Below are positions 44,352 to 60,528 of a stretch of DNA of 64,000 nucleotides, in pieces. The stretch is taken from positions 82,747 through 146,746 of the forward strand of contig NZ_AXVA01000019.1 in assembly GCF_000482325.1 (NCBI RefSeq), read 5' to 3'. The translations under genes and the position numbers were made by a program. The DNA is from Bacillus sp. UNC438CL73TsuS30 (GTDB taxonomy: Bacteria; Bacillota; Bacilli; Bacillales; Cytobacillaceae). The notes beneath the pieces are model-generated. The model saw nothing but the letters and a program-made list of their open reading frames with translations. It was not told the origin of the DNA and did no database searches. The first letter of the stretch is position 1. Each line of letters starts with the position of its first letter.

Positions 44352-45557
44352 ATGGGTTTAGATAAAAAAAGAAGTACATTGGCTCTGCTCGCTTTAGCTG
44401 TCAGTGCTTTTGCGATTGGCACAACTGAGTTTATCAGTGTCGGATTATTACCGTTGATCGCTAAGGACTTAAAAATATCGGTTACAACTGCTGGTTTAAC
44501 GGTTTCGTTATATGCATTAGGGGTTACTTTTGGAGCACCGATTCTAACCTCGCTAACATCGAGAATGTCGCGAAAATCATTATTACTGTGGATCATGGTT
44601 GTTTTTATCATCGGCAATAGTATTGCTGCCAGTGCAACAATGGTGTGGGTGTTGCTGTTGGCCCGTGTTGTATCTGCATTTTCACATGGGGTTTTTATGT
44701 CAATCGGCTCTACCATCGCAGCGAACCTAGTGCCGGAAAATCGTCGGGCGAGTGCAATTTCGATTATGTTTACAGGCCTCACTGTTGCCACCGTCACGGG
44801 TGTTCCGTTCGGAACCTTTATTGGTCAGCAATTTGGCTGGAGATTTGCCTTTATAACCATTGTGGCAGTTGGCGTGATAGCATTTATTGCGAACATACTA
44901 TTAATACCAGCTGAATTACCAAAAGGAATCAAAACCAGATTGCGAGATCAGGTGAAGCTTATTACCAATGGAAGGTTATTACTTTTATTCATCATTACCG
45001 CTTTAGGATATGGCGGAACGTTTGTAGTTTTTACCTATCTATCGCCATTACTTCAAGAAATTACGGGATTTAAACAGGGGTCTGTAGCGGTGATTTTACT
45101 CGTCTATGGACTTGCGATTGCCATTGGAAATGTGATTGGCGGAAAAGCAGCCAACCGAAAGCCGATTTCAGCCTTATTTTATATGTTTATCCTACAAGCC
45201 ATTGTGCTGTTTATCTTAACCTTTACGGCTCCATTTAAGGTAGCGGGTTTACTCACAATTATTTTTATGGGGGTATTGGCTTTCATGAACGTTCCTGGAT
45301 TACAGGTATATGTCGTAATGCTGGCGGAACGTTATGTCCCAAGCGCAGTGGATGTCGCTTCTGCAATCAATATCGCCGCATTTAACGCAGGAATTGCGAT
45401 TGGGTCCTATCTTGGAGGTGTGATTACCGATTCAATTGGACTCATTCATACAGCATGGGTTGGTGCACTGATGGTTTTTGGTGCTGTTATTTTAACAGGT
45501 TGGAGTCGTGCTTTAGAACGAAAAGATGAAAAAATGGTTTTACAAAAAATTTCTTAA
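44352..45557 (+). CDS. MFS efflux transporter, DHA1/AraJ type
   Basis: 401 residues, 12 predicted spans, drug-efflux group signature in the first loop (GTTEFISVGLLPLIAKDL) and GWRFAFI after span 5. GGAGGAG selects ATG 44352. It is followed 17 nt later by an aldo-keto reductase and is divergent from an HxlR regulator; such modules respond to reactive carbonyls or toxic aromatic compounds. Exported compound unknown. Confidence 0.88.
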   Translation: MGLDKKRSTLALLALAVSAFAIGTTEFISVGLLPLIAKDLKISVTTAGLTVSLYALGVTFGAPILTSLTSRMSRKSLLLWIMVVFIIGNSIAASATMVWVLLLARVVSAFSHGVFMSIGSTIAANLVPENRRASAISIMFTGLTVATVTGVPFGTFIGQQFGWRFAFITIVAVGVIAFIANILLIPAELPKGIKTRLRDQVKLITNGRLLLLFIITALGYGGTFVVFTYLSPLLQEITGFKQGSVAVILLVYGLAIAIGNVIGGKAANRKPISALFYMFILQAIVLFILTFTAPFKVAGLLTIIFMGVLAFMNVPGLQVYVVMLAERYVPSAVDVASAINIAAFNAGIAIGSYLGGVITDSIGLIHTAWVGALMVFGAVILTGWSRALERKDEKMVLQKIS

Positions 45558-45574
45558 CAATGAGGAGAATCATT

Positions 45575-46414
45575 ATGAATACATTACAAGATAAAACAAC
45601 ATTAAATAACGGTGTGAAAATGCCTTGGTTTGGCATTGGTGTATTTAAAGTAGAGGAAGGACCTGAGCTAGTCAATGCTGTTAAAACAGCAATAAAGCAT
45701 GGTTATCGCAGTGTGGATACAGCGGCGATTTACGGAAATGAAGAAGGAGTCGGACAGGGTATCCGTGAAGGAATAGAAGCGGCCGAAATTTCAAGAGAAG
45801 AATTATTTGTAACTTCTAAGGTTTGGAATTCTGATTTAGGCTATGAATCCACTCTAGCAGCCTATGAAACAAGCCTGCAGAAACTAGGTGTAGAGTACTT
45901 GGATTTATATCTTATTCACTGGCCTGTTGATGGGAAATATAAAGAGGCCTGGAGAGCATTAGAAACCCTTTATAAAGAGGGACGGGTAAAAGCAATTGGG
46001 GTGAGTAATTTTCAAATCCACCATCTTGAGGATTTAATGAAGGATGCGGAAATTAAACCGGTGATTAATCAGGTAGAGTATCATCCTCGACTAACCCAAA
46101 AAGCACTTCAGGAATTTTGCCGAGAGCATGATATACAGTTGGAGGCCTGGTCTCCACTGATGCAAGGGCAATTACTTGATAACCCTGTTCTGAAAGAAAT
46201 AGCTTCAAAGTATCAAAAATCGGCTGCTCAAATCATTTTGCGCTGGGACCTGCAAAACGGGGTTGTAACGATTCCAAAATCTACGAAAGAACATCGTATT
46301 GTTGAGAACGCCTCGGTCTTTGATTTTACGCTGACCAAAGATGAGATGGATCAGATTGATCGTTTGAATCAGAATCATCGTGTTGGACCAGATCCAGATC
46401 ATATTGACTTTTAA
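45575..46414 (+). CDS. Aldo/keto reductase (YvgN/YtbE-like)
   Basis: 279 residues, NADPH-dependent AKR barrel. Catalytic tetrad visible: Asp and Tyr in SVDTAAIYGNEEGVG, Lys in VTSKVW, His in LIHWPV. Cofactor region IPKSTKEHRIVENASVFDF. It reduces aldehydes such as methylglyoxal. ATG 45575 after TGAGGAGA, in operon with the efflux gene. A terminator follows. Confidence 0.94.
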   Translation: MNTLQDKTTLNNGVKMPWFGIGVFKVEEGPELVNAVKTAIKHGYRSVDTAAIYGNEEGVGQGIREGIEAAEISREELFVTSKVWNSDLGYESTLAAYETSLQKLGVEYLDLYLIHWPVDGKYKEAWRALETLYKEGRVKAIGVSNFQIHHLEDLMKDAEIKPVINQVEYHPRLTQKALQEFCREHDIQLEAWSPLMQGQLLDNPVLKEIASKYQKSAAQIILRWDLQNGVVTIPKSTKEHRIVENASVFDFTLTKDEMDQIDRLNQNHRVGPDPDHIDF

Positions 46415-46423
46415 CATAACCAT

Positions 46424-46464
46424 GGAGATATCAGGGGGTGAGACCTGATGTCTCCTTTTTTTTT
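46424..46464 (+). terminator. Rho-independent terminator
   Basis: GGAGATATCAGG pairs with CCTGATGTCTCC, followed by nine T. Confidence 0.9.
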
Positions 46465-46566
46465 CGTGTTTGTCGAAAAACAGAGGAATTTTACCGAAAA
46501 CTAAACTCTTTTATTTTGGTAACATATGGTATGATATTGCTAGTTTCATAGAAAAGAGGGGTATCC

Positions 46567-49500
46567 ATGAAGTCGGTTTGGCGAAAATTAAGTGCCATTG
46601 GAATTGGCGCAACACTGATGACATCCACGCTATTGACCACCACTGTCGAGGTATCGGCAGCAAGCAAGTTTGGAACATCCAAAGCATTGATTCAACAGAA
46701 AACAAATTCACTAAAGGAAAAGCTCGAGGAAAACAAGACCCCATTATTTAGCGAAGATACGCTCATCATCAAGTATAAGCAGCCGCTCTTGCTCGGTGAA
46801 GTAAAAGGAGCAAACAAAGATTATATTATCGTTCAAAATGTGGAAAAGCTGGGATACATGGTGGTCAAGCTTCTAAAAAAAGACTCCCTTCAAAAAGTAA
46901 CCCAGGCCTTTCAAAAGAACAGTAAGGTTCTTTCTGTGGAAAGAAGTGTTCTATATAAACCATTTTCTGTTCCATCAGATCCAAAAACAAAGGATGAATA
47001 CTATCTATCCATGTTAAAGATCCCCGAAGCCCAAAAACTGAAAGGGAAAAATAAAATAACTGTTGCTGTCATTGATACAGGGATTGATGGAAATCATCCG
47101 GAACTAAAGGGAAAAGTGCTCCCAGCCGTAAATGAAATCAATCCAATGAATCATGGAGTTCCTGATCAGCATGGTACCCATGTGACCGGTATTATTGCTG
47201 CAGCAAAAGGAAATGGCATTGGCGGTTATGGAATCAACCCAAATGTGAAAATCCTGCCGATTGATGTTTTTGACCGCGATGGTTTTATAACGGACTATAC
47301 GATTGCCCAAGCAGTGCTATATGCAGCGAACCACGGTGCAAAGGTAATTAATATGAGTCTTGGTTCGCCCATTCCGTCATCCATTTTAGGAGATGCGGTT
47401 AAAACTGCGATTCAAAAAGGAGTAACCGTTGTCGCCGCTTCAGGAAATGATGGGACTTCCGCTCCGAATTATCCTGCCAGCTACGAAGGAGTCATTGGAG
47501 TTGGTTCGATCAATAAATCGAAGCACTTAAGTTATTTCTCGTCCTACGGTCCTTCGATGGACATCGTGGCACCAGGGGAGGATATTTACGCGCCGTTTTA
47601 TGATTATGAGAAAAAATCAACCTTTCAAACTCTGAGCGGAACCTCCATGGCGTCACCAATGGTGGCGGGGGCAGCCTCCTTGCTTTTATCCAAGCATCCG
47701 AAATTAAAACCGGCACAGGTTGAATATATTCTTGAGCATACGACCAATGATTTGGGAGCGAAAGGGTACGATGTGAAATATGGAAAGGGCCTTGTTAATC
47801 CTGTCGCAGCCTTAAAGTATGATATTAAGAAGCTTCCTTCTTTTGTAAATACTGTCTGGACGAAAAAAGAAATTTTGCAAAATGCAACCGCACTTTCAAT
47901 GAAAAAGACAAAGTCAGTAACAGGATCTTTAACGAAACCACGGCAGCAAAAGTGGTATCAGCTCCCTGTTCAAAAAGGTGAGTATATCCAAACCGTGCTT
48001 GCGGGGGCAAAACAATATGATTATAAAATGACCCTTCGCGTTTATGGAGAGAACCAGAGCCTTTCGATTGACGTAAACAAAGTACAAGCGGGAAAAACGG
48101 AAGGGAAATTAATCCAGGTTCCTTTTTCCGGAATAATGGCAATTGGTGTGAATGATACCAATGGAAATTATGATGATTCCTCTGCGAAACAATCTACTTT
48201 TCATCTTTCCATTAAACGCTCTGCTGTACAGCCGGTTGACGAGTCGACTTCGGATGCGCCAATAGCGGTGAAATCCCTGCCGTATACATCCGCACCGCAA
48301 ACGTTAATGGGGGAAAATGGGGATGATGATTACTTTTACCTTAAGACCAAAAATGAGAATGCTGCGAAAGTAGTGCTCTCGGGAATTCCGGGGATTGATA
48401 CGAATATTCAAGTCTATAGTCTGTCTGTGGTGAATGAAGAAACGGAAAAAAATGATGAAAACGTCATGGAGGATAATGTCCCGCTTGATCAGCTCCCGCC
48501 AATTGCAGCGGCAGATAGTAAAGGAATAGGGGATGGGGAAACGTTGACATTCCCTGCTCAGCCTAATACAGAATATTTAGTCAAGGTTTCGAGTAAACCA
48601 ATGCTAGATTTTGCAGATGAAAAAGGGATGGTTCTAGTTGACAAGTCAAGTGAGGAAGCGCAGGCATCCCTTGAACCCTACACCGTCAAAATTCAAGGCA
48701 AGGTGATACCACCGGATGAAGATAACAGCGCTAATACAAATCCGGATGGATCTCTTTCTGATTATTATCAATCGATTTTGGATGGCACCGTTTCTTCGCC
48801 TGCTGGTAAAACACTTGTCGGCTATTTGCAAACGCCGGAGGATGAGGATTGGTATGAGGTTAAGCCATCTAAAACGGGAATTTATCAATATAGTCTGCCT
48901 AAAGGATTAGGAGTGAAACCGTATATTGAGATTGTACATGTAATGAATGGCAAGGATGAAAATGGCAGGGACATTGTTGATTTTAATTTAGTTGGAACCA
49001 ATATGAATGATGCGAATTGGGTATCAGGGGAATTAAGTGATACCATTTTTGCTGGTTTGAAAAAGAATGAAACATATTTGATTCATTTCATGGGGAATCC
49101 AATGACAGGGGGAGGTATTTCCCTTGATCCGTATCAATTGTCTTCTAAGTTACTGATTTCGAATACCGGAGATAAATATGAGGATAATGATTCAGTTCCT
49201 AAAAATTTACCATCCTCAACAGTCCATGGAAATTTTGCAGCGCCAAATGATGTGGACATGTTTTATTTAAAAGGGAAGAAATCAAGTATTTACAGTCTGT
49301 TATTTGAGAGCGGCAAGCCAAGTGCTGCCATGCTGAAAAAGTATCCAAAAGAGCTATTCTCACAAATTTACGGAGCTGCGATTGTTTACAAGGATGTCAA
49401 TAAGAACCGGAAAATTGATGGGGCAGACGCTGAAATGGCCAGTGTGATGGCGAAGGGGCTTTTCGAGGGTGCATCAAATAATTACGGATCCTTTAAAGTG

Positions 49501-49977
49501 GAAAAGGGAAGTAACTATATTGTCGTCATTATTGGGCTCACGGCCAGTTCTTCTCAAATATCTTTAGTACCGTATAATTTATCCATTGCCCCTGTCCCGA
49601 CAAAAGATGAAGACGCAAAATCGAAAGTAAAGAACAATGTACCATCCAAACCTCTTACTTTGAAAAAGAAAGGCTCCCATACGCTGATGGCTTCTGGTAA
49701 TTTAAACAGCGGGGTAGGGTATGGCGATGAAGATTGGTATGTATTGAATGTAAAAGACAAATGGAACGGATACATTTCGGTATCGGGCGGCCCAGAGATT
49801 GATGCGGTCATCTCCCTTTACCATAAAGGTAAAAGAGTCTCCCTTGCTGATTATTATGCACAAGGACAATCCGAAGTCATGCGTGTCCATCTCAAAAAAG
49901 GAAAATACTATATCAAAGTCAAGGATGTTAATGGCAACGCAACAATCAAGCCATATACAATAAAAGTAACAAAATAA
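46567..49977 (+). CDS. Secreted subtilisin-like serine protease (S8) with C-terminal repeats
   Basis: 1136 residues. Signal peptide (KLSAIGIGATLMTSTLLTTTVEVSA), propeptide-like segment, then an S8 domain with catalytic Asp170 (VIDTGIDG), His202 (HGTHVTG) and Ser360 (GTSMASP). The remaining ~740 residues hold about five PPC-like beta modules, recognised by D-E/D-D-W/Y-F-Y phrases (KWYQLPV ~455, DDDYFYLK ~590, DEDWYEVK ~760, NDVDMFYLK ~898, DEDWYVLN ~1055), and one calcium-loop segment DVNKNRKIDGAD near residue 942. No cell-wall sorting signal seen, so it is secreted. Ribosome site AGAGGGG. Monogenic, strong terminator. Confidence 0.93.
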   Translation: MKSVWRKLSAIGIGATLMTSTLLTTTVEVSAASKFGTSKALIQQKTNSLKEKLEENKTPLFSEDTLIIKYKQPLLLGEVKGANKDYIIVQNVEKLGYMVVKLLKKDSLQKVTQAFQKNSKVLSVERSVLYKPFSVPSDPKTKDEYYLSMLKIPEAQKLKGKNKITVAVIDTGIDGNHPELKGKVLPAVNEINPMNHGVPDQHGTHVTGIIAAAKGNGIGGYGINPNVKILPIDVFDRDGFITDYTIAQAVLYAANHGAKVINMSLGSPIPSSILGDAVKTAIQKGVTVVAASGNDGTSAPNYPASYEGVIGVGSINKSKHLSYFSSYGPSMDIVAPGEDIYAPFYDYEKKSTFQTLSGTSMASPMVAGAASLLLSKHPKLKPAQVEYILEHTTNDLGAKGYDVKYGKGLVNPVAALKYDIKKLPSFVNTVWTKKEILQNATALSMKKTKSVTGSLTKPRQQKWYQLPVQKGEYIQTVLAGAKQYDYKMTLRVYGENQSLSIDVNKVQAGKTEGKLIQVPFSGIMAIGVNDTNGNYDDSSAKQSTFHLSIKRSAVQPVDESTSDAPIAVKSLPYTSAPQTLMGENGDDDYFYLKTKNENAAKVVLSGIPGIDTNIQVYSLSVVNEETEKNDENVMEDNVPLDQLPPIAAADSKGIGDGETLTFPAQPNTEYLVKVSSKPMLDFADEKGMVLVDKSSEEAQASLEPYTVKIQGKVIPPDEDNSANTNPDGSLSDYYQSILDGTVSSPAGKTLVGYLQTPEDEDWYEVKPSKTGIYQYSLPKGLGVKPYIEIVHVMNGKDENGRDIVDFNLVGTNMNDANWVSGELSDTIFAGLKKNETYLIHFMGNPMTGGGISLDPYQLSSKLLISNTGDKYEDNDSVPKNLPSSTVHGNFAAPNDVDMFYLKGKKSSIYSLLFESGKPSAAMLKKYPKELFSQIYGAAIVYKDVNKNRKIDGADAEMASVMAKGLFEGASNNYGSFKVEKGSNYIVVIIGLTASSSQISLVPYNLSIAPVPTKDEDAKSKVKNNVPSKPLTLKKKGSHTLMASGNLNSGVGYGDEDWYVLNVKDKWNGYISVSGGPEIDAVISLYHKGKRVSLADYYAQGQSEVMRVHLKKGKYYIKVKDVNGNATIKPYTIKVTK

Positions 49978-49984
49978 CAAAAGT

Positions 49985-50029
49985 AAGGCGGTTAGCTGGT
50001 GCACAGGGATGTGCTCAGCTAACCGCCTT
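49985..50029 (+). terminator. Rho-independent terminator of the subtilase gene
   Basis: AAGGCGGTTAGCTG pairs with CAGCTAACCGCCTT, with a second GTGC stem inside the loop. Confidence 0.9.
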
Positions 50030-50031
50030 TT

Positions 50032-50055
50032 CACATTGGTGCCCACATTGGTGCC
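50032..50055. repeat. Two tandem 12-bp units at the edge of repeat copy D
   Basis: CACATTGGTGCC (50032-50043) is repeated exactly at 50044-50055; the second unit supplies the first six bases of the GGTGCCTGTCACC head. Confidence 0.95.
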
Positions 50056-50106
50056 TGTCACCGTTCGTGGACAAAAATGGTATTTTTGTGCGCCTGCGGT
50101 GGACAG
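50050..50106. repeat. Palindromic intergenic repeat, copy D
   Basis: GGTGCCTGTCACC, GTTCGTGGACA, a T-rich middle, and GCGGTGGACAG. Head in the opposite loop orientation to copies B and C. Confidence 0.85.
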
Positions 50107-50163
50107 TGTTACAAAAGAATAAATGTAAGGGGTTTATAAGGGCATATTAAAGATAAAAAGTTC

Positions 50164-50231
50164 TTGCACAAAATTCTAAAAATAGTTACTATAATGGTAG
50201 TAACCAAAACAAACGTTTGTAAGCGTCTACA
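50164..50231 (+). promoter_or_regulatory. nupC promoter, palindromic operator and cre site
   Basis: TTGCAC (50164-50169), 17 nt, TACTAT (50187-50192). The palindrome GTTACTATAATGGTAGTAAC (50185-50204) covers the -10 box. TGTAAGCGTCTACA (50218-50231) matches 13 of 14 cre positions. This suggests a specific repressor plus CcpA control. Confidence 0.7.
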
Positions 50232-50266
50232 AGAGGCTGACGTTTGATATCATCTGGGGGTAATGT

Positions 50267-51448
50267 ATGAAATATGTCATTTCGATTATTGGTCTTCTTT
50301 TTGTATTCGGTTTAGCATTATTAGTCAGTAAAGATCGGAAAAGGGTAAGAGTAAAACCGATTATCATCATGGTGGTCATTCAAATTCTTTTGTCCTGGAT
50401 CCTCCTGAATACCGAAATTGGTTTAATCATAATTCGGGCAATCTCTACTGTTTTCAGTAAATTGCTGGAATACGCGAATGAAGGGGTAAGCTTCGTGTTT
50501 GGCGGGCTGGCAAATAAAGGAGAGGCACCTTTCTTTTTAAATGTGCTGCTGCCAATTGTGTTTATTTCTGTGTTAATCGGGATTTTCCAGTATCTAAAAA
50601 TTCTCCCCCTTATCATGAAAGGAATTGGACTTGTTCTTAGTAAGGTAAATGGGATGGGGAAATTGGAATCGTATAATGCTGTAGCATCGATGATGGTCGG
50701 ACAATCGGAAGTATTTATTACGGTTAAAAAACAGCTTGGACAGCTGCCGGAGCATCGCTTGTATACACTATGTGCCTCTGCGATGTCCACCGTTTCGATG
50801 TCGATTGTCGGGGCCTATATGAATATGCTTCAGCCGAAATTTGTTGTAACGGCTCTTATCCTTAACCTATTTGGCGGTTTTATCGTTACATCCATCATTA
50901 ACCCCTACAGGGTGGAACCAAGTGAAGATATTTTGGTGATCCATGAAGAAGCGAAACAGTCCTTCTTTGAAATGCTTGGTGAGTATATCCTAGATGGATT
51001 TAAGGTGGCTATAATCGTAGGTGCAATGCTAATTGGATTTGTTGCCTTAATGGCTGCAATTAATCATTTATTTCAATTATTGTTCTCGATTTCCTTCCAG
51101 CAGCTATTAGGATATATTTTTGCACCAGTGGCATTTATTATGGGAATCAACCCAGCTGAAACCGTTCGTGCTGGTGGAATCATGGCGACAAAACTTGTAA
51201 CGAATGAATTTGTGGCGATGATGGATTTATCGAAAGAGGTAAAAAGTTTTGACCAGCGGACTGTTGGAATTCTTTCAGTATTTTTAGTATCCTTTGCGAA
51301 CTTTGCGTCAATCGGAATTATTGCCGGTGCTGTTAAAGGCTTAAATGAAAAACAAGGAAATGTCGTGGCCCGCTTCGGTTTAAAACTTCTTTATGGAGCC
51401 ACACTTGTCAGCGTTTTGTCTGGTGTGATTGTAAGTTTTGTCTTATAA
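50267..51448 (+). CDS. nupC: Concentrative nucleoside transporter NupC
   Basis: 393 residues, CNT family. N-terminal spans, gate-like domain and nucleoside-binding core with [36 protein letters not shown] and the C-terminal [12 protein letters not shown]. It couples nucleoside uptake to protons or sodium. CTGGGGG precedes the ATG. It heads a purine nucleoside module (pbuE, deoD downstream) and shares an operator with pbuE. Confidence 0.94.
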
Positions 51449-51453
51449 AAGTT

Positions 51454-51486
51454 AAACCTAGTGATTTCACTAGGTTTATTTTATTG
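51454..51486 (+). terminator. Terminator between nupC and pbuE
   Basis: AAACCTAGTGA / TCACTAGGTTT around TT, then a T-rich tail. Confidence 0.85.
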
Positions 51487-51499
51487 TAAAAAAACCTCT

Positions 51500-51540
51500 T
51501 GCCATAAAGGGTTAATGGAGGTTACTATAGTAGTAGTAAC
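51500..51540 (+). promoter_or_regulatory. pbuE-deoD promoter with palindromic operator
   Basis: TTGCCA (51500-51505), 17 nt, TACTAT (51523-51528), overlapped by GTTACTATAGTAGTAGTAAC (51521-51540). Half-sites are identical to those at nupC, with a different 6-bp centre. No adenine riboswitch is present, unlike B. subtilis pbuE. Confidence 0.7.
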
Positions 51541-51593
51541 TAATGGGAAAGCATTCATAATAAATAACCAATCGAAGGGAGGAGAGTCACCAC

Positions 51594-52772
51594 GTGAATT
51601 TTAGAATCTATCTTTTAGCGATTGTTTCATTTGTGGTCGGAATGGCTGAGCTGATTGTCGGTGGGATTCTTGACATCGTCTCAGATGGCCTTGGCATTTC
51701 AATTAGTGCTGCGGGAGAACTTATTACGATATATTCACTTGTTTTTGCGATCGCCTCACCGGTCCTTTTAACGGTAACCGCGAAAATTGAAAGAAAGCGG
51801 CTGTTGCTTTGGACATTGCTGATCTTCTTATGCGGGAATATGATCGCCTTCATCAGCCCTAATTTTATTGTTTTATTTCTTTCAAGAATTATCTCTGCTG
51901 CAAGTGGATCTCTTTTAGTGGTTCTTTCCGTAACCATTGCTTCAAGTATTGTAAAAGAAGAATATCGTGCGCGGGCAATAGGAGTCATCTTTATGGGAAT
52001 CAGCGGATCCCTCGTATTGGGGGTGCCGATTGGACTTGTGATTGGGAATCATTTCGGCTGGCGCTCACCATTTCTGTTTATCGCTGTGCTAACACTGATT
52101 TCAATGGCAGGGGTATATGCCTTCTTAAATAAAATCGACCCTAAACCAATGATTTCACTAAAACAGCAATTACAAACCTTGAAAAATTCAAAGATTTTAT
52201 CAGCGCAGTTAACTTCTGTTTTATTTTTAACGGGGCATTTAACTCTCTATGCGTATCTAACCCCGTTTTTAAAAACAACCCTACATTTAGATGCAACCTG
52301 GGTCAGCATTTTTTACTTTATTTTTGGTATTTCAGCTGTTTTTGGAGGAGGCTTTGGGGGCTGGCTGGCCGACAAATGGGGTTCAAAGAAAAGCATTTTA
52401 ACCATCGTAACCGTGTTTGCCGTCGCCCTGTTTGTCCTGCCAAATGTCACTTTTTCCATTACGCTTTTTGTCATCGTAATGATGGTGTGGAGTGCGTTAA
52501 GCTGGGCGATTACACCGGCACAGCAAAACTATTTAATTGAAACGGCGCCGGAAACATCGGATATCCAGCAAAGTTTGAATAATTCAGCCTTGCATATCGG
52601 GATTGCACTAGGCTCTGTAATCGGTGGAATGGTCATCAACCAGTATTCGGTTCAAGCGAATGCATCAGTAGGTGGGGTATTTATCATCATTGCCTTACTA
52701 TGTGCCATTTTTTCTATTACAAGAAAACCAACTGAAAATAGACAAGAGGAGGTGAGCATGATGGTGGAGTAG
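51594..52772 (+). CDS. pbuE: Purine base efflux transporter PbuE (MFS)
   Basis: 392 residues, 12 predicted spans, closely resembling B. subtilis PbuE: MAELIVGGILDIVSDGLGIS, EYRARAIGVIFMGIS and the late PAQQNYLIETAPETSDIQQS. It exports hypoxanthine, adenine and related compounds. GTG start at 51594 after AGGGAGGAG. The last codons contain a perfect ribosome site (AGGAGGTG, 52747-52754) and the 5' arm of a hairpin that leads to deoD. Confidence 0.9.
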   Translation: MNFRIYLLAIVSFVVGMAELIVGGILDIVSDGLGISISAAGELITIYSLVFAIASPVLLTVTAKIERKRLLLWTLLIFLCGNMIAFISPNFIVLFLSRIISAASGSLLVVLSVTIASSIVKEEYRARAIGVIFMGISGSLVLGVPIGLVIGNHFGWRSPFLFIAVLTLISMAGVYAFLNKIDPKPMISLKQQLQTLKNSKILSAQLTSVLFLTGHLTLYAYLTPFLKTTLHLDATWVSIFYFIFGISAVFGGGFGGWLADKWGSKKSILTIVTVFAVALFVLPNVTFSITLFVIVMMVWSALSWAITPAQQNYLIETAPETSDIQQSLNNSALHIGIALGSVIGGMVINQYSVQANASVGGVFIIIALLCAIFSITRKPTENRQEEVSMMVE

Positions 52773-52802
52773 GGATATCCTCTCCAGCATCATGATCGAA
52801 TG
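52747..52802 (+). promoter_or_regulatory. Hairpin-spaced ribosome binding site of deoD
   Basis: AGGAGGTG (52747-52754) is the only good ribosome site for deoD but lies 45 nt before its ATG (52800). The interval folds into a hairpin (54-69 of 527xx with 82-97, two mismatches, inner 3-bp stem and GATAT loop) that removes about 42 nt and leaves GA before the ATG. The pbuE stop codon is in the loop. Confidence 0.7.
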
Positions 52803-53498
52803 AGTGTTCATATCAATGCAAAACAAGGGGAAATTGCAGAAAATATTTTATTACCGGGAGATCCTTTACGTGCCAAGTATATCGCGGAGACTTTTTTGGA
52901 AGATGTGACTTGTTATAATGAAGTGCGCGGCATGCTTGGTTTTACAGGTATGTATAAAGGAAAAAGAGTATCTGTTCAAGGAACAGGGATGGGAATTCCG
53001 TCGATTTCCATCTATGCGAATGAGTTAATTCGTGAATACGGTGTAAAAAATTTAATTCGTGTTGGTTCCTGCGGGGCAATCCAGAAGGATATAAAGGTCC
53101 GGGATGTGGTTCTAGCGATGACATCTTCAACTGATTCGAATACAAACCGCCTGGCTTTTCCAGGAATTGATTATGCACCGTGTGCTAACTTTAATTTACT
53201 GCAGAATGCCTATCAAGCAGGCACGCAAAAGGGCCTGGAAATAAAGGTTGGAAATGTGTTGTCAGCGGATGTATTCTACCGGGACAGCATGGATATTGTA
53301 AAAAAACTAGCTGATTATGGTGTGCTCGCAGTGGAGATGGAAACCACCGCATTATATACACTGGCTGCAAAATATGGTGTGAACGCGCTATCGATTTTAA
53401 CCGTCAGTGATCATATTTTCACCGGGGAAGAAACGACAGCCGAAGAACGTCAAACCACGTTTAATGACATGGTGATCATGGCGCTTGAGGCATTATAA
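52800..53498 (+). CDS. deoD: Purine nucleoside phosphorylase, DeoD type
   Basis: 232 residues, the hexameric low-specificity PNP. Family phrases: [29 protein letters not shown] (start), phosphate-binding [24 protein letters not shown] and catalytic Asp in [11 protein letters not shown]. It cleaves purine nucleosides to base and ribose-1-phosphate. No local ribosome site; see the hairpin entry. Operon with pbuE and functionally linked to NupC. Confidence 0.96.
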
Positions 53499-53504
53499 GA
53501 TAAA

Positions 53505-53533
53505 GGCAGCGGGATCATCCCGCTGCCATTTTA
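53505..53533. terminator. Bidirectional terminator
   Basis: GGCAGCGGGAT / ATCCCGCTGCC with a single-base centre; T-rich on both strands. Lies between convergent deoD and the regulator. Confidence 0.88.
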
Positions 53534-54292
53534 ATATCTTAACCTCATTAAGAGGTTTTTGATTTCCTCATCCTGCATTAATGTATCTTCAAATCTTTTC
53601 GTGATTTTTGCTAAGGCTAAATCATGGTAAAAAAAGTCAACGAAAAATTTTACGAAGGGTGGTGACTTTGTGATCATCGCCTGCCATGCACCGTTTTCCA
53701 CACCGGCGAACAAAATTTCCTCTTCATCCGTTATGATTAGACGGCTATTCTCTAACATCCGATGCTCTTCATTCGGAGATAGAATCGTGAGCGAGGATAG
53801 TGCTGCATCAACATCCCCGACAACAAGTGCCTCTACCTTTACACCCGCATGTTCTTTTTCGAGTAAAACTGGCAAAAAGTCATGAAAATCTTCTTTCCAT
53901 AGAGAAATTTGAATTGATTTCTTCGCCTCTTGCAGCAGCTGTTTACATTTTAGTTGAATTGAGGAATCGACTTTTAGACTCCATACCCGGTCATCGGTTA
54001 TTTGTTTTTTGGATGAATTTTGTTTCAAACGATCGATATTGGTCTGAAATTGCTTTGTCAGCATTTCAATGACCAGATTTAACGGCAGAGCAGAATAGAG
54101 CTTTTTCTTTTCTGAAACAGAATCCAGCACCAGCCCTTTTTCAATCATTCGCGTCAACACTTCATATACCTTTGCTTTTGGAACCCCGGAGTATTTTACA
54201 ATTTGTGTCGCATCCAGCGGTTCATCATTGGAGGAAAGGATCTCATAAACCTTGCTTTCATACTGTGAAAAACCAAACTTTTGCAGCATCAT
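53531..54292 (-). CDS. TrmB-like transcriptional regulator
   Basis: 253 residues. N-terminal winged HTH of the TrmB type (FGFSQYESKVYEILSS..DATQIVKYSGVPKAKVYEVLTRMIEKGLV), a coiled linker, then a sensor half resembling the PLD-like TrmB effector domain. Convergent with deoD. Because nupC and pbuE-deoD share a palindromic operator and no other regulator is in the module, this protein is the best candidate to bind it; the effector might be a nucleoside or sugar phosphate. Starts at either of two adjacent ATG codons. Confidence 0.88.
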   Translation of the reverse strand: MMLQKFGFSQYESKVYEILSSNDEPLDATQIVKYSGVPKAKVYEVLTRMIEKGLVLDSVSEKKKLYSALPLNLVIEMLTKQFQTNIDRLKQNSSKKQITDDRVWSLKVDSSIQLKCKQLLQEAKKSIQISLWKEDFHDFLPVLLEKEHAGVKVEALVVGDVDAALSSLTILSPNEEHRMLENSRLIITDEEEILFAGVENGAWQAMITKSPPFVKFFVDFFYHDLALAKITKRFEDTLMQDEEIKNLLMRLRY

Positions 54293-54514
54293 TACGCCCT
54301 CTTTTTAAGAAAAATTCGTCATATAGTCTATCATATTGGAATACAGAATGTTTGTAAAATCATCTTTAATTCAAGCCTTAGACACATCTTATCATTCTGT
54401 AAGGTATAGGTCTTTTTTACTCTAAAATCGAATAATGGAAGAAATACGTTAGTTTTTAGAAATAGAGGGAATTATATAATCAGTTACCAATCATGAAAGC
54501 CAGGAAGTGAAAGT

Positions 54515-56056
54515 ATGTCAGATACAGATATATCGAAATATGAAAAGAAAATTATCATCCGCAATATACGTGTTGAAGATATTGATGCCATTATCGACTT
54601 AGGGAAGGTTTGTTTCCCTAATATGGATCCCTGGAAAAGGGAGCAATTACTTAGTCACATCCGAATTTTCCCTGAGGGTCAGTTTTGTGTCGAATATGAG
54701 GACAAGATTGTTGGTTCTTGTTCCAGTCTAATCGTTAATTTTGATGAATATGATGACCAGCACACATGGGATGTCATCACGGACAACGGGTATATTACCA
54801 ATCATGACCCGGATGGATTTAACTTATATGGGATAGAGGTAATGGTGGACCCCGAATACCGTCGAATGAAATTAGGCCACCGTCTATACGAGGCACGTAA
54901 GGATCTGGCAGTTCGATTAAATCTAAAAAGCATTATCATTGGAGGAAGAATCCCGAATTACCACAAATACAAGGAAGAAATGACAGCCCGTGAATATGTT
55001 GCGGCCGTTGAGAAGCATAGCATTTATGACCCGGTGCTATCCTTCCAGCTCCTTCAAGGATTTGCGATTAAAAGGATTAACACAAGGTATCTGCCGGATG
55101 ACAAAGCATCTGATTCGATGGCGACCTTGATGGAATGGAACAATGTTGATTATCGTCCAAAATCCAAACGGATCTATCGTACAGCGTTTCCCATTCGAAT
55201 TTGTGCCGTGCAGTATATGATGAAGAAAATTGATTCGTTTCAGAATTTTAGCCGGCAAGTCGAGTACTATGTGGATGTCGCCGCTGATTTCGGATCGGAT
55301 TTTGTTGTATTTCCAGAAATTTTTACCACCCAATTAATGTCCTTTCTCGAAGAAAAACGACCCGATCAGGCAGTACGAAGACTCGCCACCTATACCGATC
55401 AATACATTGAATTGTTTACACAACTTGCTGTACGCTATAACATCAACATTGTCGGGGGATCACATTTTGTAGAAGAGAATGGGGAGTTGTACAATGTTGG
55501 TTTCCTATTCCGCCGCGACGGTACGATAGAGAAGCAATCCAAAATTCACGCTACTCCTGATGAGCGTAAATGGTGGGGGATATCAGAAGGAAACGAAATC
55601 AATGTATTTGAGACCGATTGCGGAAAGATTGCTATCCAAATTTCGTATGATGTTGAGTTTCCGGAGCTCGCAAGGATTGCCGTGGATAAAGGGGCAAATA
55701 TCATTTTCGTGCCTTTTTGTACGGAGGACCGTCAGGCATACCTTCGTGTTCGCTGCTGTGCGCAGGCACGGGCAATTGAAAACCAAGTATATACGTGTAT
55801 TGCAGGAACTGTGGGCAATTTAACACATGTGGAAAATATGGATATTCAGTATGCTCAGTCAGGAATTTATTCCCCTTCTGATTTTGAGTTTGCAAGAGAC
55901 GGGATTGTTGGGGAATGTGACGCAAATATTGATACAGTGGTGGTAGGTGATGTTGACCTTGAGAAATTGAGGCGCTCTCGGAACTCGGGATCACTAAGGC
56001 AATTGCGTGACCGCAGACATGATTTATATCGAGTGGAATGGAAAAATTTAAGCTAA
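54515..56056 (+). CDS. yhcX: GNAT acetyltransferase-nitrilase fusion (YhcX-like), nucleophile Cys replaced
   Basis: 513 residues, full length for the family. Residues ~10-200 are a GNAT acetyltransferase (VMVDPEYRRMKLGHRLYEARKDL is the acetyl-CoA loop); ~225-500 are a carbon-nitrogen hydrolase. Of the hydrolase triad Glu268 (FPEIFT) and Lys343 (QSKIHA) are present, but the nucleophile position in I-x-Y-D-V-E-F-P-E is Ser377 (TCG) instead of Cys. Amidase activity is therefore probably lost or altered, while the frame is intact and conserved around it. AGGAAGTGA precedes the ATG. Upstream 54293-54514 shows no clear promoter. It is next to, but separated by a terminator from, the sigma-54 cluster. 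Confidence 0.9.
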   Translation: MSDTDISKYEKKIIIRNIRVEDIDAIIDLGKVCFPNMDPWKREQLLSHIRIFPEGQFCVEYEDKIVGSCSSLIVNFDEYDDQHTWDVITDNGYITNHDPDGFNLYGIEVMVDPEYRRMKLGHRLYEARKDLAVRLNLKSIIIGGRIPNYHKYKEEMTAREYVAAVEKHSIYDPVLSFQLLQGFAIKRINTRYLPDDKASDSMATLMEWNNVDYRPKSKRIYRTAFPIRICAVQYMMKKIDSFQNFSRQVEYYVDVAADFGSDFVVFPEIFTTQLMSFLEEKRPDQAVRRLATYTDQYIELFTQLAVRYNINIVGGSHFVEENGELYNVGFLFRRDGTIEKQSKIHATPDERKWWGISEGNEINVFETDCGKIAIQISYDVEFPELARIAVDKGANIIFVPFCTEDRQAYLRVRCCAQARAIENQVYTCIAGTVGNLTHVENMDIQYAQSGIYSPSDFEFARDGIVGECDANIDTVVVGDVDLEKLRRSRNSGSLRQLRDRRHDLYRVEWKNLS

Positions 56057-56058
56057 TA

Positions 56059-56091
56059 AGCTGCTCCCACGGTTGGGGCAGCTATTTTTTA
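56059..56091 (+). terminator. Rho-independent terminator
   Basis: AGCTGCTCC pairs with GGGGCAGCT around a short loop, followed by six T. Confidence 0.82.
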
Positions 56092-56246
56092 TAAACTTGA
56101 TGTCGAAAAAACTACACCGAAGGGGGTTAGGCCACTTTCCGACTAATGCATGCGCTTACTCTTTTCGTATAACCGTGGTATCATATGGATAGTAAAAAAG
56201 TTATTGCAACATTATGATTTTAGCAGCGGGAAAGGAAGAAATTCAC

Positions 56247-57980
56247 TTGAATTATAATAAAGACTTTGCCGTCATCAATGTCTCAACAAATGTAAGGGAA
56301 GCCTTGGATACGATGATTCAAGCTAGTATCCGGTTATTAGTTATAGAATCAGAAGGGAAACCTGTCGGGGTCTGTGATAGCTTTCACCTATTAATGCAAA
56401 AAAAACAGCCTGAACAAAAAGTGGCTTTTCATACGGATTTTATCCTAACAACCAGCAAGAATATCTTTTCCCTTGCCGATGACGATTTCTCCTATGCCCT
56501 CATTGAGGATGATACTGCGGAAATAATCGGTTGGACGGATCAGAAATCAGTGGAAATTGATCATATAAAACAAGCATATTCGAAAGACCTAGGAGCCATA
56601 ACAACCGATTTGGAAGCAATTGTCGATTCGATATATGATGAAGTTTTAGTTGTTGACAGTCTTGGAAAAATTATTCGGGTTTCTAATCGAAGCACCCACC
56701 AATTATGGGGAGTAGACCCCGAAACGGTTATTGGTCAAAATATTTTAGAACTTGAAGAAAAGGGATGGTTTAAGCCTTCTGTTACAAGAAAAGTATTGGA
56801 GGAAAAGAAGAAAGTTTCAATTGTCCAGCATAACCGCTTCGGCAGGAAAATACTAGCTGTAGGAAATCCGGTTTTTAATCAAAAAAATGAATTAGAACGA
56901 ATTGTCATTGCTTCCCGTGATATTACAGCCGTTAAAAAATTAGAGGAAGAACTTGAAGAGGCGAAAACACTAAAAGAAAAATATCGCAAAGAGGTAGATA
57001 TCTTAAAGAAAGTCCAGCATGGAAATGAGAAGAAGATTATCTATCAATCTGAACAAATTAAAAATTTAATGTTTGAGGTCGAAAGGGTGGCCCGAGTTGA
57101 ATCAACGGTTACCTTATATGGAGAATCAGGGGTAGGGAAAGAGTTGTTTGCTCAAGCCATCCATCAGCTGAGCCCAAGGGCGGAAAATCCATTTATTCGC
57201 ATTAATTGCGGATCCATCCCTGAAAATTTATTGGAGAGCGAGCTATTTGGCTATGAAAAAGGTGCCTTTACCGGCGCCCTAAGCAATGGAAAAAAGGGCT
57301 TGTTCGAATTAGCCAATGAAGGAACTCTTTTTTTAGATGAGATTGGTGAGTTACCGCTTAATTTACAGGTAAAGCTTTTAAGGGCGATACAAGAACGGGA
57401 AATTATGAAAATTGGCGGCAGCAAAGCAATCCCAATTAATATTCGTATTATTACAGCAACCAATAAAAATTTGGAGGAAATGGTTGCGAAAGGAACCTTC
57501 CGCGAGGATTTATTTTATCGAATTCATGTTATTCCGTTATTTATTCCACCATTAAGGGAAAGAATCGCAGATATTGAACCTATTGTTTATCATTTCCTAG
57601 AATATTATAATGAAAGATTTTCGTCGAAGAAATATTTTTCCGAGGATGCAATGGAAGTGTTAAAAACATATAAGTGGCCAGGGAATATCCGGCAGCTGCA
57701 AAACGTAACAGAACGGGCCATGGTGGTTACGGCGGAGCAAATGATCACTGCGAATGACCTTGTGAAAATATTGGACAATCGTCAGAAAAACCAACATCCT
57801 GTGGAAGTGCATACCATTATCCCCCTTCAGCATGCAGTCCAGGATACGGAAAGACAGCTGCTTCAATTAGCTTTATTGAAATATAAGACGCTAACAAAAG
57901 TGGCTGAAGTGTTAGAGGTGAGTCAGCCGACTATCAGCAGACTTTATAATAAACTGAAGAACAGTCTTCAGGTTCGTTAA
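56247..57980 (+). CDS. Sigma-54-dependent transcriptional activator (PAS + AAA+ + Fis HTH)
   Basis: 577 residues from the TTG at 56247, which has AAAGGAAG 8 nt upstream; the ATG at 56214 has no ribosome site. Order: N-terminal CBS-like segment, PAS domain (~ residues 120-240, [20 protein letters not shown]), AAA+ domain with Walker A GESGVGKE, sigma-54 contact loop GAFTGA, Walker B LFLDEIGE and Arg finger region, and a Fis-type HTH ([22 protein letters not shown]). It should bind the ATTCA-N4-TGAAT sites and activate the two -24/-12 promoters downstream. In the B. cereus group a comparable activator (GabR) controls gabTD with SigL. Confidence 0.93.
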
Positions 57981-58019
57981 AAAATAGTACAATTGTTTTT
58001 CTAATATAGCCAAATGAGC

Positions 58020-58064
58020 AGTTCATTCATTTTTGAATAATTATCATTCAAAAATGAATGAACT
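58020..58064 (+). promoter_or_regulatory. Upstream activating sequence, 19-bp perfect inverted repeat
   Basis: Arms 58020-58038 and 58046-58064 are exact complements around AATTATC. Each arm contains an inner palindrome ATTCA-N4-TGAAT (58025-58038 and 58046-58059), centres 21 bp (two helical turns) apart. About 50-90 bp upstream of the -24/-12 promoter, the usual place for activator binding. Confidence 0.75.
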
Positions 58065-58111
58065 ATCGTTTTATATCTATAAACATAGTTGATATGTCGA
58101 TATTTAAAGGA

Positions 58112-58129
58112 TTGGCACGAAATATGCAT
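58112..58129 (+). promoter_or_regulatory. Sigma-54 (-24/-12) promoter of the permease gene
   Basis: TTGGCACGAAATATGCAT with invariant GG and GC separated by 10 nt. The transcript would have a leader of about 185 nt; a weak cre-like AGATAGCGTTTACA lies at 58259-58272. Nothing else is seen in the gap 57981-58323. Confidence 0.85.
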
Positions 58130-58323
58130 ATTAGAATAATAGGGATAGTTTAAAAGTATAAGGGTAGAGGGAAAGTTGTACTGCCATAATAAGTGAGGGA
58201 GGAATCAAAGCCACGGCTATAATTTTCTGACTTTTCCAATAAGGGTGACTAGTCAAATAGATAGCGTTTACAAAAAATGAACGTTATCTTATAAGTTTTA
58301 CGACAACTTAAGGGGGAACATAT

Positions 58324-59676
58324 ATGGAAAAACAAGAGGTATCGTTTGAACGATCACTTACATTAACACATCTAGTTTTATTTGGACTTGCTTATTTAGC
58401 TCCGATGATTGTGTTTGGAATCTATGGGACGGTTGCAGAAGTAACCCATGGACTTGAGGCAAGCGCTTATTTGGTTGCCTTAATTGCAATGTTTTTTACT
58501 GCCTTCAGCTATACGCATATGGTTAAAGCTTATCCTGTTGCCGGATCTGCCTATACCTATACACGTAAATCTCTTAATTCACACCTCGGATTTATGGTCG
58601 GCTGGGCTACCCTGCTCGATTATGTCTTTATACCAATGGCCATCTGGCTGATTGGAAGTGCTTATTTGAATGCGGCATTTCCTTCTGTACCATCATGGTT
58701 ATGGATCCTCTTATTTATATTTGTTACAACCGCAATCAATATTCTTGGAATCAAATTGAGTACTAAGGTCAACTTTCTTATGATGGTGTTTCAATTTTTA
58801 GTTATTGCACTATTTATTATTTTAAGTATTAAGAGCGTATTAGGCGGTGGCGGTGCCGGTACACTTCTTTCCGTAAGCCCGTTCGTGAATACTCATGTTT
58901 CGTTTTCATTTGTCCTGGCTGGAGCATCAATTGCCTGCTACTCATTCTTAGGTTTTGATGCCATTTCAACCTTTACCGAAGAAACAAGAAATCCTGAAAA
59001 AACGATCCCAAGAGCCATCATTTTGACAACTGTTATCGGTGGATTGATTTTTGTTGTTTCTACCTATTTCACTCATTTAGCTCACCCGGATTTTACGCAT
59101 TTCAAAGCGGTAGATTCTGCAGGGTTTGAAATTGCTAAGCAAATAGGCGGGAACTTATTTAGCGCCATTTTCTTAGCAGGGATTATTATCGCCCAGTTTG
59201 CTTCAGGAATTTCCGCTCAAGCAAGTGCATCAAGATTGCTGTATGCAATGGGCCGCGATTCCGTACTTCCGAAAAAAATCTTTGGCTATCTCCATCCAAA
59301 GTTTAAAACACCTGTACTGAATATTCTTGTTGTAGCTGTGATTGGGTTACTGTCATTAAAGCTAAGTGTGTCAACTTCCACCTCATTTATAAACTTTGGT
59401 GCGTTTGTTGCCTTTATTTTAGTAAACGTTTCCGTTATTGCTCACTTTTATATAAAAGGCGGTAAACGGGCAGGAAAAGAAAAGATTTTCTATTTATTAT
59501 TTCCAGCCATAGGCTGCTGCTTCGATATTTGGCTGTTTGTAAATCTTGATAAAAATGCACTAATTTTAGGCGGTACTTGGGCAGTAATCGGATTTGTCTA
59601 TTTACTTGTTCTTACAAAAATGTTTAAAAAGCAGCCGCCGGAAATGCATTTTGAGGAAATGGATGAGGCTGTATAA
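58324..59676 (+). CDS. APC-family amino acid permease
   Basis: 450 residues, 12 predicted spans, amino acid-polyamine-organocation fold. Substrate-site phrase GIYGTVAEVTHG in span 1 and SFLGFDAISTFTEETRNPEKTIPRAI around span 6. AAGGGGGA precedes the ATG. First gene after the sigma-54 promoter, so it should import the inducing substrate: GABA, putrescine-type or another omega-amino acid is inferred from gabT/gabD. Confidence 0.92.
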   Translation: MEKQEVSFERSLTLTHLVLFGLAYLAPMIVFGIYGTVAEVTHGLEASAYLVALIAMFFTAFSYTHMVKAYPVAGSAYTYTRKSLNSHLGFMVGWATLLDYVFIPMAIWLIGSAYLNAAFPSVPSWLWILLFIFVTTAINILGIKLSTKVNFLMMVFQFLVIALFIILSIKSVLGGGGAGTLLSVSPFVNTHVSFSFVLAGASIACYSFLGFDAISTFTEETRNPEKTIPRAIILTTVIGGLIFVVSTYFTHLAHPDFTHFKAVDSAGFEIAKQIGGNLFSAIFLAGIIIAQFASGISAQASASRLLYAMGRDSVLPKKIFGYLHPKFKTPVLNILVVAVIGLLSLKLSVSTSTSFINFGAFVAFILVNVSVIAHFYIKGGKRAGKEKIFYLLFPAIGCCFDIWLFVNLDKNALILGGTWAVIGFVYLLVLTKMFKKQPPEMHFEEMDEAV

Positions 59677-59690
59677 GGATGAAAATAAGG

Positions 59691-59717
59691 GAAGGGCTTA
59701 GATGAAGCCCTTCTTTT
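59691..59717 (+). terminator. Terminator after the permease gene
   Basis: GAAGGGCTT / AAGCCCTTC around a 5-nt loop, then TTTTA. Read-through would be needed to express the next gene from the same promoter. Confidence 0.75.
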
Positions 59718-59739
59718 ATCGCTAATGGGAGGCATATAA

Positions 59740-60528
59740 GTGGAAAAAATCTATAGAATTGCACTCGCACAGCTAGCTGTAGCGGATGGAAATAAAGAAG
59801 AAAATTTAATAAAAATGGAATCTGCCGTTAAGAATGCGTGGAAGGAATCGGCAGATCTCTTGATTTTACCGGAATTAAACCTGACCGGCTTAGTATCGAA
59901 GGACCAATTGACAGGAATAGCAGAACCGCGCGAAGGGGAGAGTTTTAACCGGATTCAACGCATGCTGGCAGATTACCCTGTATCATTACTGTATTCTTTT
60001 CCAGAGTATGTCTCTGATGAGGAAATCTATATTACCTCCTGCTTGGTAGGGAAAGATGGCGAGGCATTGGCTTATTATCGTAAAACACATCTCTTTACTG
60101 AAGAAAATGAACTATTCAGCAAGGGGAACGAGCTTATAGCCTTGAGCCAAGACGGCCTTTCATTGGGGTTTCTCACCTGCTATGATATAGAATTTCCTGA
60201 GCCGGCAAGGGCACTTGCATTACAAGGGATAAATCTCTTAATCGTCAATTCGGCCAATATGGCACCATACGAATATATCCATCGCTTATTTATTCAGTCA
60301 AGAGCGCTCGAAAATCAAATCTTTGTGGTTTACTGTAATCGCATCGGGGCAAATTCAAAATATGAGTATCATGGGCAAAGTGCAGTCATTGGGCCGGATG
60401 GAAAAATCATTACGGAAATTGCTGACGATGTTGAAACGGTGCAAATCATTGATCTTTCTTTCGAGAATTTTAAAAAATCTAGCGCTGTTTTCGACTATTT
60501 ATCTGACAGGAGAAGAGAACTCTATTAA
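59740..60528 (+). CDS. Carbon-nitrogen hydrolase (nitrilase family amidase)
   Basis: 262 residues, complete catalytic triad: Glu45 (LPELNLTG), Lys115 (YYRKTHLF) and Cys147 (LTCYDIEFPE). GTG start after GGGAGG. Family members hydrolyse amides or N-carbamoyl compounds in the cytoplasm. Placement between an amino acid permease and gabT suggests it releases an omega-amino acid or keto acid from an amide, for example 4-aminobutyramide or 5-aminovaleramide; this is inference. Confidence 0.88.
   Translation: MEKIYRIALAQLAVADGNKEENLIKMESAVKNAWKESADLLILPELNLTGLVSKDQLTGIAEPREGESFNRIQRMLADYPVSLLYSFPEYVSDEEIYITSCLVGKDGEALAYYRKTHLFTEENELFSKGNELIALSQDGLSLGFLTCYDIEFPEPARALALQGINLLIVNSANMAPYEYIHRLFIQSRALENQIFVVYCNRIGANSKYEYHGQSAVIGPDGKIITEIADDVETVQIIDLSFENFKKSSAVFDYLSDRRRELY

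Follow-up and report, generated by a model that had tools for sequence, protein, structure and literature searches.

We report that deoD of Bacillus sp. UNC438CL73TsuS30 begins behind a conserved hairpin that is predicted, and very probably serves, as a structural spacer between a distal Shine-Dalgarno (SD) sequence and the deoD ATG. What our comparisons establish at the level of sequence is that the start has no local SD motif, that a distal SD is present, that the stem has changed on both sides between relatives, that the SD-ATG spacing is near-constant once the hairpin is excised, and that the hairpin is missing from Neobacillus fumarioli (N. fumarioli below), a natural loss.

The window, that is, the whole 64,000-nt stretch of contig NZ_AXVA01000019.1 analyzed here, comes from a host genome of 5.6 Mb in 40 contigs. 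Its deoD product belongs to the DeoD-type purine-nucleoside phosphorylases (PRK05819, 396.6 bits with a cut-off of 230; TIGR00107, 360 bits with a cut-off of 232), with Bacillus sp. MUM 116 as nearest relative among the named loci (94% identity; best 80 of 108 loci). The ATG at 52800 comes first in the frame, there being no ATG, GTG or TTG between the preceding stop and this position. The name pbuE for the upstream MFS gene was given by the earlier note; the family models give MFS_1, the NCBIfam matches all lie below their cut-offs, and pbuE is not confirmed. This frame spans the SD, enters the 5' arm of the hairpin and ends there with a TAG (52770-52772). Since terminator-like hairpins flank the pair and none is listed between, the pbuE-like gene and deoD look like one transcription unit. 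Just 5' of the pair, on the other side of the first of these terminator-like hairpins, lies a NupC-like nucleoside transporter (50267-51448; Pfam Nucleos_tra2_N, Nucleos_tra2_C and Gate), and this region looks like a nucleoside salvage cluster. Beyond deoD, and judged by eye, a 253-aa ORF facing it on the minus strand (53531-54292) reads as a TrmB-type regulator, and a 513-aa ORF (54515-56056) reads as a carbon-nitrogen hydrolase domain preceded by an acetyltransferase domain. The host genome carries a second deoD (L004, G000:C10, ~139456-139656) with an ordinary SD, TTGGAGGATTATTAATG, which is a useful internal control for the hairpin deoD.

Table 1. Features at and around the deoD start, in positions of the window
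Feature	Position	Strand	Basis
Terminator-like hairpin upstream of the MFS gene	51453..51478		terminator listing
MFS gene, PbuE-like, 392 aa, GTG start	51594..52772	+	ORF list; Pfam MFS_1 (E 6.6e-49)
Distal SD, AGGAGGTG	52747..52754	+	sequence; predicted anti-SD duplex -18.2 kcal/mol
Hairpin 5' arm: core 52757-52763 (pairs with 52788-52794), upper stem 52765-52769 (pairs with 52782-52786)	52757..52769	+	fold, junction comparison
Decoy ATG beside the SD, in the 5' arm; would encode MMVE, then stop	52758..52772	+	sequence; not conserved
Hairpin top with the MFS-gene stop: U bulge 52770, loop 52774-52778, inner stem of 3 bp (52771-52773/52779-52781)	52770..52781	+	fold
Hairpin 3' arm: 52782-52786 and core 52788-52794	52782..52794	+	fold, junction comparison
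3' linker ATCGA, hairpin to start codon	52795..52799	+	junction comparison
deoD, purine-nucleoside phosphorylase, 232 aa	52800..53498	+	ORF list; NCBIfam
Terminator-like hairpin after deoD	53505..53527		terminator listing

The earlier note had proposed an SD 45 nt from the deoD ATG, bridged by a hairpin, and its description of the junction stands in nearly every part. The SD lies where it was placed, 45 nt from the ATG (47 nt from GGAGG to ATG), with a predicted anti-SD duplex of -18.2 kcal/mol compared with -1.5 kcal/mol for the local match; all anti-SD energies in this work are based on an assumed 16S tail. The arms that the note gave (52754-52769 and 52782-52797) do complement each other except at two positions, G52756/A52795 and G52764/G52787, and the inner 3-bp stem appears in our fold. 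The spacing is suitable too: the TGAG (5') and ATCGA (3') linkers leave an SD-ATG distance of 9 nt when the hairpin is excised. The stop codon of pbuE is at the position reported, but not in the loop, since the predicted fold has its U as a bulge and the next positions in the inner stem. The window junction folds at -24.9 kcal/mol, with a shuffle mean of -14.1 kcal/mol (z -4.0; 0 of 200 shuffles as good). With the SD and start region held unpaired, the core stem is predicted to form with a probability that falls from 0.998 at 37°C to 0.955 at 65°C, and the stability is -23.3 kcal/mol, within a range of -11.1 to -32.8 kcal/mol for the 42 distinct intervals described below.

We collected deoD starts by searching the DNA of 61 genomes of the genus, by scanning named genomes (best 80 of 108 loci), and by looking for DeoD in 299, 193 and 398 genomes of the order, the family and the class, respectively. 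The order search gave matches in 226 of 299 genomes; 30 loci were read, plus a few fetched, and those 30 divide into 12 with the hairpin and 18 with an ordinary SD. The family and class searches contributed only their nearest DeoDs, those matching at E ≤1e-122. Counting starts as distinct by their 60 upstream nucleotides and first 60 residues, dropping those with less than 60 nt upstream (except the N. fumarioli loci L011/L038), and selecting hairpin junctions by GGAGG or AGAGGTG at the place of the distal SD, we classified 130 distinct starts: 42 with a distal SD and hairpin, 72 with a strong local SD and no hairpin, and 16 with neither. A local SD motif of the GGAG/GAGG type occurs in 0 of the 42 hairpin starts versus 72 of the 88 others. 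Three of the 16 (L060, L199 and L209) fold as mismatched hairpins whose contiguous pairing is not outstanding (p 0.13, 0.04 and 0.17, respectively); the remaining 13, from ten spirochaetes, one Clostridium, one alphaproteobacterium and one Metasolibacillus, have no hairpin. Hairpin junctions thus total 45 when the three mismatched stems are included, and distinct intervals number 42.

Among the named loci (best 80 of 108), the genera seen include Neobacillus, Niallia, Mesobacillus, Metabacillus, Halalkalibacter, Fictibacillus and Brevibacillus. All 12 new loci from the class search (L199-L210, from the E ≤1e-122 matches) fold as a bridging hairpin, two of them sharing intervals with named Brevibacillus loci. 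Folding is stronger than in shuffles at z ≤-3.3 in 26 of 29 junctions; the other three are L058 (z -1.8), L038 of N. fumarioli, which has no hairpin, and L056, which needed its true SD. The shortest contiguous stems among flagged junctions are those of L208 and L210, from one family (f63), with 6 pairs and an excised distance of 7 nt, possibly a weaker form of the element. On a DeoD tree of 124 rows, the hairpin label changes 4 times, of which 2 are forced, with a mean of 35.1 changes for shuffled labels. The label being clustered in this way, the 42 hairpin starts are not independent events, and the split between hairpin and local SD may partly reflect kinship.

Spacing points to what the hairpin does. 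Over the 42 distinct intervals, the linear SD-ATG distance runs from 34 to 71 nt (sd 7.5), too far for direct use of the SD, and there is none near the start, whereas the distance left by excising the predicted stem is 7-13 nt, with a mean of 9.7 and an sd of 1.3 (the registers of L060, L199 and L209 were set by hand in this count). Ordinary deoD SDs sit 5-12 nt from their ATG (mean 7.7; the 59 of 72 having GGAGG). The hairpins span 25-60 nt, and their core helix starts 4-6 nt past GGAGG and ends 5-7 nt before the ATG in 28 of 28 junctions. Predicted anti-SD duplexes at hairpin starts average -16.9 kcal/mol for the distal site (weakest -13.7) and -4.3 kcal/mol for the local match, as against -11.5 kcal/mol for the SDs of the 72 ordinary starts. 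In some Fictibacillus junctions a weak anti-SD match occurs close to the ATG, the strongest (-9.2 kcal/mol, L046) being far below its distal site.

The stem itself has been rewritten while its pairing was kept. Its letters read CATGATG in the window, ACCGTTACA in Fictibacillus, GCCGCTACGG in L157 and GCCGTCGCGC in L202. In an alignment of 11 junctions in one register, seven of nine pairs have changed on both sides, a count reached by 3 of 500 shuffles; 97.9% of 97 cells are paired and the covariation score is 0.673, values that 0 of 500 shuffles reach in either case, and slid registers pair at 22-55%. MAFFT misaligned groups of different register when given all stems, and pairs were counted on a separate alignment and in scripts; a further alignment, which includes antisense and chance matches, does not enter the counts. 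With 8 pair levels scored in each of the 42 intervals, the share of paired cells is 97.9%, versus 49% with partners redealt, and two-sided cells number 157 versus about 42, figures for which the register was chosen per locus, raising the percentage paired; two-sided changes at 8 of 8 levels are uninformative here, with a mean of 7.9 in shuffles. Because of this choice of register, redealing the 3' sides and re-optimizing the register is the fairer control: own partners form a mean of 9.1 Watson-Crick pairs, redealt ones a mean of 4.0 (5.05 in the top of 500 trials), and at least 6 pairs are formed by 39 of 42 intervals with their own partners and by at most 19 of 42 with strangers (500 trials). 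The earlier note had held that homologous junctions without a conserved stem would count against its proposal; when checked, these junctions keep their stems through compensatory changes.

A natural deletion bears on the same point. In N. fumarioli (L011/L038), CAGGGAGG is followed by a putative remnant of the 3' arm and the ATG, with no hairpin and GGAGG 12 nt from the ATG; the end of pbuE is retained upstream, as 19 residues with 58% identity at the edge of the contig. As this DeoD nests within the hairpin clade of the 124-row tree, the hairpin was most likely lost and direct spacing took its place, which is the outcome that a distance-setting role of the hairpin predicts.

Could ribosomes instead reach deoD by translational coupling, finishing pbuE, or a mini-ORF that starts with the decoy ATG, and reinitiating at the deoD ATG, with the hairpin opened or incidental? 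The end of pbuE lies at most 29 nt from the ATG in four distinct intervals (the window, L007, L012 and L187), and by eye the decoy mini-ORFs of L008, L009 and L013 reach the ATGA or TAATG of deoD. Yet these four are the only ones among 34 distinct linked intervals to have the pbuE stop inside the hairpin, the other 30 having it upstream of the SD, and an ATG within 12 nt of GGAGG is present in 14 of 42 intervals and absent in 28. A tblastn search of the 1,500 nt upstream places pbuE before 37 of 45 hairpin junctions and gives no match for the other eight (L156, L199, L200, L204, L205, L207, L208 and L210); a nearest-upstream-ORF test agrees on linkage for 45 of 45. Among starts with no hairpin, pbuE is upstream in 1 of 85 by tblastn, that of N. 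fumarioli. With the stop mostly upstream of the SD and eight junctions lacking pbuE in the 1,500 nt upstream, there is in general no need for termination of pbuE or for coupling, and coupling leaves the constant excised spacing and the two-sided changes unexplained; we regard it as very unlikely. A leader peptide from the decoy ATG was likewise rejected as a general reading on the 28 intervals that have no such ATG; neither an upstream ORF nor a stop beside the start is conserved. The switch envisaged by the earlier note, in which a ribosome finishing pbuE would open the structure, is for the same reasons not borne out as a general mechanism. In the lineage of the window, ribosomes translating pbuE would enter the 5' arm and could open the stem, with a possible negative effect on deoD.

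Equally improbable, in our judgment, is that the hairpin is the target of a regulatory protein, a ligand or an RNase, controlling or stabilizing deoD mRNA, and that the bridging geometry is a by-product. A conserved structure at a purine gene and an SD of such unusual predicted strength would fit this explanation, but the sequence and size of the loop vary freely among junctions, and a by-product would neither fix the two linkers as tightly as observed nor accompany a missing local SD. An Rfam search at the gathering score found 0 matches in 45000-60000, and thus no known cis-regulatory element there; a riboswitch was rejected on this result. That the inverted repeat, intergenic as it is, works as a double-stranded DNA operator or an intrinsic terminator is extremely unlikely, since the sequence of an operator should be conserved while the letters of the deoD stem change in pairs, and no terminator is listed on the plus strand in 52700-52900, nor a T-run after the window stem.

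We return to the hairpin as spacer and to how far it is confined to deoD. A sequence-free descriptor (distal SD, no local SD, ORF of at least 80 aa, at least 7 contiguous Watson-Crick pairs) was run on 864 kb of the host genome; its 7-pair threshold was set after an 8-pair version gave 0 matches in the window, where the stem has 7 contiguous pairs and then a mismatch. There, 896 start codons pass the SD and ORF filters and 6 of them also fit the stem, of which deoD alone looks like a gene start. Of the others, three are preceded by 109 to 386 codons and lie deep within longer frames; the remaining two, with 17 and 28 codons ahead of them, most likely represent internal starts in genes that are presumably RuvB-like and lipoprotein-like. 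Three triplet-shuffled versions gave 0, 0 and 0 matches; as such shuffles break long ORFs, the 5 other real matches per 896 are the better chance rate. On the fetched loci (822 kb, redundant), the 8-pair descriptor gave 60 matches at deoD starts and 6 elsewhere, 4 of these being N. mesonae deoD read from a GTG one codon earlier and 2 chance.

A covariance model (R1), run on the 61 genus genomes with stricter filters that lose weak matches, has strong matches (E ≤1.6e-9) in 8 genomes, all at deoD, the next best being at E 0.0029. Twenty weaker loci (L124-L145 without L132 and L133) appeared to have ordinary SDs by their own ATG, unrelated repeats or weak folds, and a weak match in the host genome (contig C2), in a gene that is presumably menD/menH-like, looked ordinary. 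R1 also matched an unrelated long-stem repeat, CCTGATTACA.../...TGTAATCAGG, in three genus genomes (L134, L135 and L136). Since R1 leans to CATGAT-like stems, other genes may share the same build.

In two phage T4 genes, structure shortens the SD-AUG distance, from 22 to 5 nt in gene 38 and from 27 to 11 nt in gene 25, the latter structure being kept in close T-even phages (PMC3014915). The T4 stretches that we fetched fold between SD and AUG. The likeness to gene 38 suggested by the earlier note is well founded: as in the T4 cases, the deoD SD is too far from its start, and a predicted intervening structure, here with conserved stems, would restore a functional distance. From its geometry and covariation, the deoD hairpin appears to work like the accommodated, or split, ribosome-binding sites of genes 38 and 25, and we claim likeness, not membership. 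There are differences as well. The deoD hairpins take out 25-60 nt, compared with 16-17 nt for the T4 structures; deoD is a chromosomal metabolic gene with an extended SD, found with and without pbuE upstream; and across several families compensatory changes have replaced the letters of its stem.

In the split ribosome-binding site of E. coli thrS, a hairpin domain precedes the SD and so, unlike the deoD hairpin, does not come between SD and AUG. This domain is reported to lie at -14 to -48, and the ribosome to accommodate such a long hairpin in its mRNA contact region with no unfolding (PMC3936740), much as we propose for deoD. A study on S. aureus ribosomes reports extended SD-anti-SD helices and spacings that exceed those of E. 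coli by 2-3 nt (PMC13009471), which is compatible with the deoD SD GGAGGTGA and its usual spacing of 9-11 nt; the word 'hairpin' has 0 occurrences in the main text of that article. Among the matches listed from the open-licence literature of PubMed Central, we found no description of such a hairpin at deoD, which does not in itself prove novelty, and the SD-AUG bridging structures found among them belong to phage genes. As far as the literature searched shows, a bacterial metabolic gene as host, the size of the hairpin and the breadth of its conservation are new relative to the T4 cases.

Taken together, these features suggest how deoD would be initiated. The 30S subunit would bind the very strong distal SD while the hairpin stays folded and bulges out, so that the start codon would come to lie in the P site at a normal distance of ~7 to 13 nt. 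The default state would be open for initiation, the core stem being predicted to form with both the SD and the ATG unpaired, and opening of the stem by anything would be expected to lower deoD initiation. We infer that the stem is formed in vivo, that ribosomes make use of the SD while the stem stays intact, and that this arrangement sets DeoD output. More tentatively, and with rather more doubt than confidence, the hairpin may be an ancestral, vertically kept cis-RNA gate of one DeoD subfamily across the class Bacilli, which would be on in the folded state and off once a ribosome, a helicase, a nuclease or heat had opened it.

With dozens of natural versions, hairpins of 25-60 nt, the N. fumarioli deletion and a paralogue with an ordinary SD, the handling of a structured spacer by the 30S subunit becomes directly testable. 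The starts of the hairpin deoD genes form a class beyond the reach of any gene finder that relies on a fixed SD window. If the gate were real, it would mean that bacterial ribosomes routinely start on mRNAs with a helix of 10-20 bp as SD-AUG spacer, and that start-site finders miss such genes.
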